Of a stretch of 22,007 nt of DNA, positions 3,539 through 12,571 are shown piece by piece. The stretch is taken from IMG/VR virus record IMGVR_UViG_3300009505_000077, positions 1 through 22,007 of that record; one strand, written 5' to 3'. The DNA comes from a virus. The translations under genes were made by a program, and so were the position numbers. The notes beneath the pieces are model-generated. The model saw only the letters and a list, made by a program, of their open reading frames with translations, had not been told where the DNA came from and did no database searches. Position 1 is the stretch's first letter, and every line of letters begins with the position of its first letter.

Positions 3539-4309
3539 ATGTCAATTCTATCCAAAATCGCCAAGCCTAAGGATCGCGCTATCATCGCAACATTATGCGG
3601 TGACAGCGGTATGGGTAAGACCACCCTCGCGGCGACATGGCCGAAGCCTATTGTTATTCGTGCCGAGGACGGTTTGCAATCCATTGCGCAGGACAAGCGC
3701 CCGGATGCGTTCCCGTTGCTGACAAGTGTAGATGAGTTGTGGGAGCAGTTGACCGCTCTTGTAACCGAAGATCATGAGTACAAGACGCTCATCATTGACA
3801 GCGTGACTGCGCTGGAGCGACTGTTTATTCAGAACGTGATCGACAGTGACCCGAAGAAGCCGAAGAGCATCAACCAAGCAATGGGTGGCTACGGCGCTGG
3901 CTTGTCAACTGTTGCATCTATGCACCAGCGTGTCCGTAAGGCTTGCGGCCTGCTTAATGAGCGCAAGGGCATGAACGTTATTTTTGTTGCTCATGCTGAC
4001 ACTGAGACCATCGAGCTTCCCGACCAAGACCCGTACACGCGGTACAGCTTGCGGCTGGGTAAGAAGTCTGTTGCTCCATATGTGGACGACAGCGACATAG
4101 TTGGTTTCTTGAAGCTGGAGACATTCACGACTGGCGACGGTGAGCGCAAGAAGGCGATCAGCGACGGTACGCGGGTTATTGTGACACACGCCACTGCGTC
4201 GAACGTGTCGAAGAATCGGTATGGCTTGACTGAAGAGCTTACTGTGAAAGAGGGTGAAAACCCGTTTGCCGGTCTTATCCCCGGCTTGGATAAAGGAGCA
4301 TCTAAATGA
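3539..4309 (+). CDS. Sak4-like RecA-fold ATPase (AAA_24), recombination mediator
   Basis: A 256-residue P-loop ATPase. Walker A is GDSGMGKTT at 21-29, Walker B is TLIIDSV at 83-89, and a RecA-like strand NVIFVAHADTE follows later. Length and motif order match phage Sak4/AAA_24 proteins, which act as single-strand annealing or RecA-like recombinases together with a phage SSB. The immediate downstream gene is an SSB-type protein overlapping by ATGA, as in many Sak4 modules. It opens the rightward replication/recombination operon, with ribosome-binding site AAGGAG six bases before the start. No Rad51-like N-terminal extension is present. Confidence 0.85.
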   Translation: MSILSKIAKPKDRAIIATLCGDSGMGKTTLAATWPKPIVIRAEDGLQSIAQDKRPDAFPLLTSVDELWEQLTALVTEDHEYKTLIIDSVTALERLFIQNVIDSDPKKPKSINQAMGGYGAGLSTVASMHQRVRKACGLLNERKGMNVIFVAHADTETIELPDQDPYTRYSLRLGKKSVAPYVDDSDIVGFLKLETFTTGDGERKKAISDGTRVIVTHATASNVSKNRYGLTEELTVKEGENPFAGLIPGLDKGASK

Positions 4310-4863
4310 GTGATTTTTGGGGACTGTCCGATGGTGACAGCGTAAAGGCAACAACGTCTTTCGAACTTGAGGGAGGCAGCATTGAACCTATCCCTGACGG
4401 GACACAGGTTTTGGCGTCTATCGACGAGGCGCGTTGGGACGACAAGGAGGGCGCTGAGTTCATCTCGCTGCGCTGGACTGTCCTGAAGCCAGAGACGTAC
4501 AAGAACCGCAAGGTTTTCCAGAAGCTGTGGGTCATGGGTAACAACCCGAACCAGAACGACCCGACGAAGGCAAAGGCGCAGGGCGACAAGGCCAAGCGTA
4601 TGCTGGGTGCCATTGACGGAAACTGCGGTGGAAAGCTGATGGCTGGCGGCGGAAAGCCGAGCGACACTGACTTGCAGGTGTCGTTGATTGCAAAGCCAAT
4701 GATTGTGAAGTTGGCGGTGTGGGAAATGACAGGCGCTATGGGCGACAAGATGTCCGGCAACTGGGTTCAGGCTGTGTCACCAAAAGAGAATGGTGTCGCA
4801 GAAGCACCTAAGCCGCAAGCGCCAAAGCCTGACTCGGCGGCTTCGGATGAGATTCCGTTTTGA
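4306..4863 (+). CDS. single-stranded DNA-binding protein (DUF669-like)
   Basis: A 185-residue protein whose start overlaps the Sak4 stop (ATGA). Residues about 28-75 (PDGTQVLASIDEARW ... FISLRWTVLKPETYKNRKVFQKLW) fit the DUF669/phage SSB beta-barrel. The C-terminus is a proline/alanine-rich linker ending in SDEIPF, an acidic tail like the DDIPF tip by which bacterial SSBs recruit partners. Together these indicate a phage SSB that covers replication intermediates and loads Sak4. AAAGGAG at 4292-4298 provides the Shine-Dalgarno. Confidence 0.83.
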   Translation: MSDFWGLSDGDSVKATTSFELEGGSIEPIPDGTQVLASIDEARWDDKEGAEFISLRWTVLKPETYKNRKVFQKLWVMGNNPNQNDPTKAKAQGDKAKRMLGAIDGNCGGKLMAGGGKPSDTDLQVSLIAKPMIVKLAVWEMTGAMGDKMSGNWVQAVSPKENGVAEAPKPQAPKPDSAASDEIPF

Positions 4864-4875
4864 GAGGAGTGAACC

Positions 4876-5067
4876 ATGACTGAAGATATGGAACAAGTAC
4901 ATCACTTCATGGCCGAGGCGCTTCTTATGGCTATGGGAGACAATGGGGCAATGTCAGAGGCGCTGGACCAAGAGTGTAGCAGTCCCACTGATAAGCTGCG
5001 GGTTATTGGCTCAACTGACAGCCTCGATGAACTTGAGACGGTCATGATGTTTGACCGGCTAGACTAA
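4876..5067 (+). CDS. small acidic hypothetical protein
   Basis: A 63-residue, strongly acidic and methionine-rich protein (N-terminus MTEDMEQVHHFM). AGGAG at 4865-4869 and a 12-base gap after the SSB gene support translation as part of the same transcript. It has no recognised domain, membrane segment or metal site. The structured element at 5080-5144 begins 13 bases after its stop and may end this transcript. Confidence 0.65.
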   Translation: MTEDMEQVHHFMAEALLMAMGDNGAMSEALDQECSSPTDKLRVIGSTDSLDELETVMMFDRLD

Positions 5068-5079
5068 CGCCCAACTAAC

Positions 5080-5144
5080 CCACCCGCACGAAGGTTCCCG
5101 ACACCGATTAGCCTGAGTATTCAGAGCCGTGCGGGTGGTTTTTT
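5080..5144 (+). promoter_or_regulatory. structured leader/terminator RNA element, copy 1
   Basis: The outer stem CCACCCGCACG (5080-5090) pairs perfectly with CGTGCGGGTGG (5128-5138) and is followed by six T (5139-5144). The 37-base interior carries AAGGT (5091-5095), CCGATTA (5104-5110) and an inner hairpin CTGA-GTAT-TCAG (5113-5124), extended by a GC/GC pair around a bulged A. The next gene's ribosome-binding site and ATG (5164) follow within 20 bases. It can act as an intrinsic terminator, but the large conserved interior is shared with 12509-12571 and is not needed for termination, suggesting a regulated attenuator or a processed small RNA. Confidence 0.75.
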
Positions 5145-5163
5145 AACGATAAAGGATAATCCT

Positions 5164-6021
5164 ATGGAGCAAAGATCGACCGAATGGTTTGAGGCGCGAA
5201 AGAACCGTGTGACTGGCAGTGTTGTGGGGGCGATCTTGGGTCTATCCACATACATGACCCGCGATGATGTGATGCGGTCGATGGTGCGTAGCAGCCACGG
5301 CGCTGAGAGCGAGTTTACAGGGAACCCAGCGACACAATGGGGCGTGTTCAATGAGGACGGTGCCATTGTGGACTTCACGATGGAAACTGGCATGAAGGTC
5401 GTGTCGTGCGGCTTCTATCCACACCTAGACTGGCTTGGTGCGAGTCCTGATGGTTTGATCGGTGATGACGCACTGATCGAGGTTAAGTGTCCGTTCCGGC
5501 TTCGCGACGGCGGTGAGCATAAGAGCATTGACGTGCAGCCGCACTACTACGCTCAGATGCAGGTGCAGATGTATTGCACGGGCCGCACAAAGACGCATTT
5601 CTGGCAGTGGGCACCACACGCGACGATGCACGAAGTTGTCACTCTGAACGAGGATTGGCTGGACGACAACATTCCTGAGCTGTTCAATTTCTATGAGGAG
5701 TTTCTGGTCGAGCGTGACAATCCAGATGACCACCTGTCACCGAAGCGCCTAGAGGTGAACACAAATCGTGCGTTTCACCTTGTTTCTGAATACGACGACT
5801 TGCAGGAAGCCATTGATCGTGCGGCGGAGCGCAAGGCTGAGATCATGGAAGAGATGGTGGCGATGGCTAAGGGGCGTGATGCACTTATTGCTGGCCGCAA
5901 GATGACAAAGGTCGAGCGTAAGGGGTCTGTGTCATACGCGAATGTTGTGAAGAAGCATTGCAAGGGCGTAGACCTTGAGCCGTTCCGTGGAAAGTCCAGC
6001 ACAAGCTGGAAGTTCACATGA
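5164..6021 (+). CDS. YqaJ-family viral recombinase / 5'-3' exonuclease
   Basis: A 285-residue nuclease of the lambda-exonuclease/YqaJ type, which resects double-strand ends for annealing by a partner such as Sak4. The N-terminus has the family signature QRSTEWFEARKNRVTGS. The PD-(D/E)XK core is GASPDG (92-97, metal ligand D96) followed by IEVK (105-108; E106 and K108), with a conserved Q-x-Q-x-Y helix (QVQMYCTG) after it. The C-terminal 70 residues are helical. It starts just after the structured element, with Shine-Dalgarno AAAGGA, and ends in an ATGA overlap with the HNH gene. All catalytic residues appear intact. Confidence 0.9.
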   Translation: MEQRSTEWFEARKNRVTGSVVGAILGLSTYMTRDDVMRSMVRSSHGAESEFTGNPATQWGVFNEDGAIVDFTMETGMKVVSCGFYPHLDWLGASPDGLIGDDALIEVKCPFRLRDGGEHKSIDVQPHYYAQMQVQMYCTGRTKTHFWQWAPHATMHEVVTLNEDWLDDNIPELFNFYEEFLVERDNPDDHLSPKRLEVNTNRAFHLVSEYDDLQEAIDRAAERKAEIMEEMVAMAKGRDALIAGRKMTKVERKGSVSYANVVKKHCKGVDLEPFRGKSSTSWKFT

Positions 6022-11668: not shown

Positions 11669-11907
11669 GTGACGCACCAGAACGGATATGGACTACAAAA
11701 GGTGAAGGCGGCATAACCGGCGCATGGAATGCGACACCCTCGAAGCCACCCAAGCCGCAGCCCAAGCCCACTATGAGCGCAGCATCTTGGACGCGCTGGA
11801 ATGACCCGCAAAATCATCAAATTCGTCAGCTTATGGGCCGTGTTCTGGTTCTGCGTCGGGTTTGCTCAAGGGGTGCCGCAAGTCCTTGCCGCCCGCTGAC
11901 GCACTAA
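11665..11907 (+). pseudogene. possible truncated phage protein lacking a standard start
   Basis: After the stop at 11668 a frame is open to a TAA at 11905-11907. It begins SDAPERIWTTKGEGG, then GAWNATPSKPPK, close to small phage proteins that start with a PERIW motif. There is no ATG, GTG or TTG at its head; only a CTG at 11665-11667 that overlaps the upstream stop as CTGA, mimicking the ATGA coupling used elsewhere. The last residues come from DNA antisense to the helicase remnant, so the C-terminus is probably not original. Either a decayed gene or one using CTG. Confidence 0.35.
11801..11899 (+). CDS. 32-residue predicted membrane peptide, chimeric C-terminus
   Basis: ATG 11801 overlaps as ATGA a 26-codon ORF (11724-11804). 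The peptide starts MTRKIIK and then has a hydrophobic span (FVSLWAVFWFCVGFA), a plausible single membrane helix or signal sequence. Its last nine residues (GVPQVLAAR) are encoded by DNA that on the other strand is the RHP end of the helicase remnant, so the original C-terminus may have been lost at the breakpoint near 11870. Low confidence that it is expressed; it competes with the overlapping frame 11665-11907. Confidence 0.35.
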   Translation: MTRKIIKFVSLWAVFWFCVGFAQGVPQVLAAR

Positions 11908-12120
11908 ACATGCTGGCCTTATAGCCCGCTTCTAAATACTTGGAGCGGTTCTGCGTTACAAGTTCCGCAGACGGCGCAAGGCACAACACCCGCTTGCCTG
12001 TCTTGTCGTGTATCGTCCGCGCAATCGCTGCAATGACGTGTGACTTTCCAGCGCCTGTTGCAAGGTCCAGCATTGCTGGATCGCGGCGTCATGGGCTTCT
12101 TGTTGATATGGTCTAAGCAT
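11831..12120 (-). pseudogene. truncated and frameshifted second copy of the SF2 helicase N-terminus
   Basis: From ATG 12120 the minus strand reads LRPYQQEAHDAAI, matching the start of the helicase at 7188. The homology then continues in another frame from near 12080 as PAMLDLATGAGKS, so a small out-of-frame deletion has removed roughly seven codons. A hand alignment of 63 residues from the Walker A to RHP shows 44 identities with the intact helicase. Homology stops at about 11870, before the DEAH box; the reading frame runs on to 11831 in unrelated sequence. It cannot encode a working helicase. ATG 12120 overlaps the stop of a 16-codon ORF (12121-12171), itself coupled to 12168-12494, so an intact gene once belonged to this operon. 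Confidence 0.82.
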
Positions 12121-12171: not shown

Positions 12172-12494
12172 AGCATATATTCCCTTATCCATTCGCGCAG
12201 GTCGTGGACAGTCTCGGCATTGTCAAATGCGCGCATTTTATTTTCTTCAAACAGGTATTGTTCATTTAATTCCTCGCACTGCATACAGACTGTTTCTCCA
12301 GCATCGTGGCGAGTTTTAGAGATCTTTCCCGTGCAGTCTGGGGCGATACCGCTGGCGCATTTTGGGAGAGTATTCTGCACCCTTTCCCATTCTTTTTGCT
12401 TACGTAAGTACGCTTCGCCGCATGGCTTGCAGTATCTCTTGCGCCACGGGCCGCCTTGTGCGTCTCGACCGCATGATAATTTACATTTCGGCAT
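12168..12494 (-). CDS. zinc-knuckle hypothetical protein
   Basis: 108 residues with eight cysteines arranged as two likely zinc sites: C4, C8, C22, C25 and C46, C54, C70, C73 (CKLSC ... YCKPC; CMQC). The C-terminal 35 residues are acidic and helical. Such small Cys-rich proteins are frequent in phages; function unknown. It is preceded by the structured element at 12509-12571, with Shine-Dalgarno AAGGATAA within it or immediately after, so its expression may be controlled by that element. It lies in the leftward methyltransferase operon. Confidence 0.68.
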   Translation of the reverse strand: MPKCKLSCGRDAQGGPWRKRYCKPCGEAYLRKQKEWERVQNTLPKCASGIAPDCTGKISKTRHDAGETVCMQCEELNEQYLFEENKMRAFDNAETVHDLREWIREYML

Positions 12495-12508: not shown

Positions 12509-12571
12509 AAAAAGCCCGCGCTGCGCCTTGAATACTCAAGGTAATCGGCTCCACACCTTCGCAGCGCGGGC
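12509..12571 (-). promoter_or_regulatory. structured leader/terminator RNA element, copy 2
   Basis: On the minus strand a perfect 12-bp outer stem forms between 12571-12560 (GCCCGCGCTGCG) and 12525-12514, followed by five T (12513-12509). The interior has AAGGT (12559-12555), CCGATTA (12548-12542) and the hairpin CCTTGA-GTAT-TCAAGG (12541-12526). AAGGATAA (12508-12501) then gives the ribosome-binding site for the ATG at 12494. Interior sequence, GTAT loop and position match copy 1 (5080-5144), while the outer stems differ in sequence but keep pairing. Confidence 0.75.

Follow-up and report, generated by a model that had tools for sequence, protein, structure and literature searches.

The window (the whole stretch of viral DNA analysed, 22,007 nucleotides in length) contains two copies of a structured element, one on each strand. 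Copy 1 lies on the plus strand, between a small open reading frame and the start codon of an exonuclease gene, in the following arrangement:

3539-4309, plus strand: Sak4-like recombinase gene, first of the gene run
4306-4863, plus strand: SSB-like gene (ssb; phrog_9002), the gene found most consistently upstream of the element family
4876-5067, plus strand: 63-aa open reading frame inserted between ssb and copy 1 in this lineage, with relatives in loci L087/L111
5080-5138, plus strand: copy 1 of the element, a three-way junction
5080-5090/5128-5138, plus strand: outer stem P1 of copy 1, 11 perfect pairs
5091-5127, plus strand: interior of copy 1, 37 bases
5091-5092, plus strand: J12, AA
5093-5095/5103-5105, plus strand: P2
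5106-5110, plus strand: J23, GAUUA
5111-5116/5121-5127, plus strand: P3, with a bulged A at 5125
5117-5120, plus strand: P3 loop, GUAU
5139-5144, plus strand: run of six T directly 3' of P1, terminator-like and not kept across the family
5164-6021, plus strand: RecE/YqaJ-like exonuclease gene (exo), the downstream neighbour, start codon at 5164

The perfect outer stem, the 37-base interior and the T-run before the downstream gene had been recognised in a sequence-only reading of this DNA, and their coordinates are reproduced here. The interior hairpin of that reading is also present, and is refined to one arm of a three-way junction (P3), the other arm being a GGU..ACC/GCC mini-hairpin (P2). 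Two sites, and no more, in the 22,007 bases carry the interior pattern, GAAGGT..CCGATTA..TGAGTATTCA, which is absent from 100 shuffles. Its second occurrence falls on the opposite strand within 12509-12571, where the recurrence had been placed before, and belongs to copy 2:

12514-12571, minus strand: copy 2 of the element, a three-way junction
12571-12560/12525-12514, minus strand: P1 of copy 2, 12 perfect pairs, with an interior of 34 bases between its halves
12559-12558, minus strand: J12
12557-12555/12549-12547, minus strand: P2
12546-12542, minus strand: J23
12541-12536/12531-12526, minus strand: P3, with its loop at 12535-12532
12509-12513, minus strand: run of five T 3' of P1
12168-12494, minus strand: 108-aa open reading frame after copy 2, start codon at 12494, without a family match and with a weak relative in locus L202
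11834-12120, minus strand: frameshifted and truncated helicase remnant, a recombination scar from another phage lineage

Each copy folds much more stably than shuffles of itself, with folding z-scores of -4.4 for copy 1 and -4.7 for copy 2; a chance or low-complexity artefact is ruled out by the shuffles, these z-scores and the pairing in the alignment. The helicase remnant at 11834-12120 shares 96% identity over 69 aa with the helicase of locus L283, compared with 65% identity with the window's own helicase. In addition, the closest locus to the DNA flanking copy 2 is again L283 (83% over 99 nt), and P1 is identical between the two. Because copy 2 adjoins a broken helicase piece so similar to that of L283, sequence comparison identifies it as an imported remnant of another lineage's ssb-element-helicase module, which rules out a duplicate of copy 1. 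The apparent covariation in P1 between the window copies is genuine, but reflects divergence between lineages. The proposal of a duplicated element is consequently abandoned, since each element-bearing contig carries one copy and copy 2 is an imported remnant; likewise, a dispersed mobile or duplicated repeat is rejected, as the element-bearing contigs of 18-57 kb each have one strong copy.

When 2.9 million viral contigs were scanned with the pattern, 43 initial loci emerged; more than half of them were chance matches in coding sequence, lacking the fold, and were discarded after folding. Searches anchored on the neighbouring SSB protein and a covariance model enlarged the set, and the family proposed from the two window copies now comprises 43 distinct member sequences in uncultured phage contigs, plus further type-B members. 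Five matches, none folding as the element, were returned from the bacterial and archaeal genomes of 84,980 species. Among cultured phages, 12 records contain no strong match, with one weak match in Torfinnsbu (E = 0.03). A phage collection queried with copy 1 and a plasmid collection queried with copy 2 gave short partial matches only; the core in MT121967 is incomplete (E about 0.06-1).

Across its members, the element folds as a three-way junction that is conserved by compensatory change. The layout consists of the GC-rich P1, AA, P2 (GGU..RCC), GAUUA and a P3 ending in GA-GUAU-UC, where P2 branches off between AA and GAUUA, and P3 directly abuts P1 with 0 nt between them. In a sequence-only alignment of 31 members, standard pairs occupy 91.5% of the cells, and sliding the partners by 1-3 columns drops the pairing to 33-47%. 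Two-sided changes exist at 16 of the 20 pairs in this alignment, and 74 cells are changed on both sides, compared with 11-29 in the slid versions. RNAalifold, unaided, recovers essentially the same structure. Compensatory changes in several helices across divergent sequences, as expected of a structured cis-regulatory RNA motif, are therefore present; both P2 and P3 carry them, and P2 appears as GGU:ACC, GGU:GCC, GGC:GCC, GUG:CAC or GGG:CCC. The many homologues, the conserved interior and the compensatory changes in the outer stem bear out the selection on RNA structure that the sequence-only reading had supposed.

While the stems vary, hardly any change is seen in the unpaired J12, J23 and P3 loop. 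Of the 43 members, 40 have AA at J12 and 29 have GAUUA at J23, the J23 variants fitting GNNYR; 40 members have a P3 loop that reads either GNAU or five bases with a final AU. The P2 loop sequences vary freely. Three members, L115 and the L250/L258 clade, have an A at J23 position 3 together with a G at the last loop base, where the rest have U and U. Because L115 and L250/L258 also have similar P3 stems, an independent origin of this A/G core in the two is uncertain. An alternative pairing between GAUUA and the P3 loop was considered, and variation at its fifth position gives it no support. As separate observations, the core of L250/L258 (GAATA with a GCAG loop) differs from that of L245/L248/L256 (GATTA with a GCAT loop) between loci that have closely related SSB proteins and flanks and share an outer P1 half, a pattern resembling exchange of the whole core. 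The divergent members L262, L264 and L253 possess longer junctions, with TTGCA before P2 and several unpaired bases after P3, and retain GATTA/GCTTA and GAGTATTC parts.

The gene run Sak4, ssb, element, RecE/YqaJ exonuclease and helicase surrounds all placed members except window copy 2; with that exception, the constant gene context of a structured cis-regulatory RNA motif is found. The element begins 5-14 nt past the ssb stop codon in 36 of the 43 members. In most of the remaining members, a small or HNH gene is inserted after ssb and the element lies 16-40 nt before exo; in some members, a small gene is located between the element and exo. The earlier description as a leader thus stands insofar as the element lies ahead of exo, but its most constant position is just past the ssb stop codon, and small genes can precede exo. 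Such inserted small and HNH genes argue against tight regulation of one specific neighbour. The replication and recombination core (ssb, exo, helicase and primase) is common to all ten element-bearing contigs compared, and also occurs in contigs without the element. Outside the replication core, the ten share no phage protein family, and a phage-encoded partner unique to element-bearing phages was sought and not found among the incomplete contigs compared, ten with and six without the element.

At the same site, 57 of 59 junction-less relatives have a strong uninterrupted hairpin, starting at a median of 12 nt past the ssb stop codon; among 1180 random stretches, only 9 score as high as the median hairpin. 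Plain hairpins also occupy the site in the cultured relatives H103, phiHSIC, pYD21-A, CASP1 and YX3973. The junction is thus an elaboration of an existing intergenic hairpin. The L206-L220 clade is the sister of the L169/L221 group; its stem, CCAGCGGCGC/GCGCCGTTGG, nearly equals the P1 of the sisters, and the junction interior is replaced by about nine bases. On a quick tree of the SSB proteins, junction-bearing members fall in clusters, and about seven changes account for the distribution; L242 and L244, scored as junction-less on this tree, actually have a junction with a longer P2 loop. The stem kept without the interior in a sister clade and the clustered distribution on the SSB tree indicate that the junction can be acquired or dropped as a whole. 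Another conserved hairpin, TGGCAGRCCGG-N-TAAAGTCTGCCA, was observed about 20-45 nt past the ssb stop codon in the junction-less clade of L134, L137, L160 and L187.

The element is an apparently new RNA family, an elaborated form of known intergenic hairpins that has no Rfam match. Covariance models of 4227 Rfam families were run on the window and 12 member-bearing loci, and none matched the element at E values up to 5; Rfam 15 holds no matching family, and an earlier description may exist outside Rfam. The sequence-only reading, which had not recognised a known class, agrees with this result. Neither outcome that it had named as counting against it, an absence of homologues or an Rfam match, was obtained. 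The core of hammerhead-type ribozymes is CUGAUGA / GAA with a cleavage site; the junction here is AA / GAUUA / 0 nt without a match to an Rfam ribozyme, and this class is rejected. The nearest published ideas within PMC2864571 are two: the L17 downstream element, for which a role of the structured RNA in a 3' UTR was proposed, and the STAXI motif, consisting of tandem pseudoknots near Ssb, topoisomerase and antirestriction genes (PMC2864571). Like the L17 downstream element, the phage element is a conserved, bacterial-type structured RNA just 3' of a gene for a nucleic-acid-binding protein, but the structure, host group and gene are different, and no Rfam match links them. STAXI shares the association with genes for single-strand-binding proteins, whereas the phage element is a single nested three-way junction, one per element-bearing contig, rather than a tandem pseudoknot repeat. 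Membership of STAXI is rejected on the single nested junction, the absence of tandem pseudoknots and the lack of an Rfam match.

SSB, Sak4/RecT-type annealers and RecE-type exonucleases are needed in balanced amounts, and how they are balanced in phages without known regulators is little understood; here, two of these recombination genes have a structured RNA exactly at their shared boundary. The element probably sets the output level of the downstream genes. The explanation preferred here, tentatively and at somewhat less than an even chance, is a cis-acting 3'-end or attenuator RNA of the ssb-exo operon, the conserved core of which docks a candidate factor. A local cis-acting element that would end, protect or attenuate the transcript is suggested by the constant distance to the stop codon, the tolerance of inserted genes and the equivalence of plain hairpins at the site, and a putative docking site is suggested by the nearly fixed unpaired core. 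P2, P3 and then P1 would fold behind the polymerase, next to the ribosome as it departs from the ssb stop codon, and the rigid stem would end or protect the ssb transcript. Only part of transcription or translation would then pass into exo and the helicase gene, so that more SSB than exonuclease would be made. In this lineage, the former hairpin loop would have become the conserved core (AA, GAUUA and the GNAU loop), and the putative factor docked on it would tune stem stability or read-through. Such a factor would most likely be a protein. As the core proteins are common to all ten element-bearing contigs and occur elsewhere too, it would be either a core replication protein of the phage, such as SSB or exonuclease, or a host RNA-binding protein. 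The window copies with T-runs would probably be partial intrinsic terminators, and copies without a T-run would act as a stability or processing block.

The element resembles intrinsic terminators and the intergenic 3'-end hairpins of phages in its GC-rich stem a few bases past a stop codon, in the T-run present at both window copies and in the plain hairpins that occupy the same site in relatives. It is unlikely, however, that the element is an intrinsic terminator of the ordinary kind, placed between ssb and exo, with an oversized loop conserved by descent. The required stable GC-rich stem is present, both window copies have this stem followed by 5-6 T, and the hairpins at the site in H103, pYD21-A and YX3973 have T-rich tails. 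Nevertheless, at least five T within the next eight bases after the element exist in only 14 of the 43 members, leaving two thirds without a T-run, and a T-run follows only 4 of the 57 plain hairpins. The T-run is hence not the family-wide feature it had seemed from the two window copies, termination alone cannot be the common function, and a pure intrinsic terminator is rejected in that role. Furthermore, the loop of the element is a conserved junction in which AA/GAUUA/GNAU are nearly fixed despite changing stems, and P2 and P3 carry compensatory changes; a loop kept by descent would not be expected to combine compensatory stems with a fixed unpaired core. A riboswitch-like aptamer, with a small-molecule ligand at the junction core that stabilises P1, is improbable: the compact junction, in which some twelve unpaired bases hardly vary, has the form of a metabolite aptamer, but the neighbours are all recombination or replication genes and none is metabolic, no alternative expression-platform pairing is seen, no Rfam riboswitch matches, and a site 5-14 nt past a stop codon is unusual for a riboswitch. 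A comparably small chance is given to a single-stranded DNA hairpin recognised in replication as a primase or origin signal. The location in a replication gene block, the few G.U pairs in P1, the overall G.U to A.C count of only 24 to 15 and the suggestion that STAXI near Ssb genes acts as single-stranded DNA (PMC2864571) are in line with such a signal; against it, the third pair of P2 is U-A, U-G or C-G and never A.C, as expected of RNA on the element strand, the site is tied to the stop codon, and the GC skew changes direction near 3 kb rather than at 5.1 kb. The release of a phage small RNA from the 3' end of ssb is very improbable, as no conserved single-stranded seed is exposed and the P2 loops are freely variable, even if a stable 60-nt fold past a stop codon, sometimes with a T-run, resembles small RNAs derived from 3' UTRs.

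The identity of the candidate factor bears on two related possibilities. That the junction is read by the phage's own SSB or exonuclease, through the cores GAUUA/GNAU and GNAUR/GNAG, with P2 copied in one clade as a second operator, is conceivable and doubtful; if true, it would constitute a new regulatory class. The autoregulatory mRNA element of T4 gp32 is a 5' pseudoknot plus an unstructured leader. The phage element likewise represents a structured mRNA element in a phage SSB operon and may be autoregulatory, but it is a junction located 3' of ssb and the gp32 element lies 5'. By a mechanism resembling that of gp32, SSB or exonuclease would repress translation of the mRNA encoding it by binding to the junction (and to a P2-like hairpin covering the ribosome-binding site of exo). 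Such translational autoregulation is rated as unlikely. It agrees with ssb and exo being the nearest neighbours, with the core replication nature of the proteins common to element-bearing contigs, and with the reappearance of the P2 sequence at the exo Shine-Dalgarno site in one clade. However, junction-less sister phages have closely homologous SSB and exonuclease proteins, and the likeness of P2 to the ribosome-binding site is confined to that clade, its permutation test ignoring relatedness.

In the clade concerned, the P2 hairpin GGTTGGAGCC reappears at the exo ribosome-binding site; P2 is GGUUGGAGCC, and this sequence or TTGGAGCCG overlies the exo Shine-Dalgarno site. TGGAGCC is found only at P2 and the Shine-Dalgarno site in L239, L245, L247, L251, L278, L304 and L250, with 3-5 kb available per locus. 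In L304, the repeated P2 site precedes a small inserted open reading frame rather than exo. The paired positions of the P2 sequence (G)GTTGGAGCC are 1725 and 1786 in L239, 2883 and 2942 in L278, and 2839 and 2900 in L304. This recurrence may hint at autoregulation and is treated as a lead from one clade, in which the permutation test ignores relatedness.

Matched controls exist in nature for the preferred attenuator-type RNA, namely the sister phages that have the same genes and a plain hairpin, and the clade with nearly the same outer stem and no interior, and the function of the interior is therefore directly testable. A second, unrelated structured element, AAGCGNGGC-TA-ACTGGCCAGT-TGAAAA-GCAGTTCGTCACTGC-CT-GCCNCGCTT, with one compensatory change in its outer stem, is located between ssb and an inserted gene in L173 (1948-2002), L198 (about 2800-2860) and L214 (about 1500-1560). 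The inserted gene beside it in L173, read by eye, encodes an HNH-like protein, and this second element may travel with the inserted gene in the three loci.
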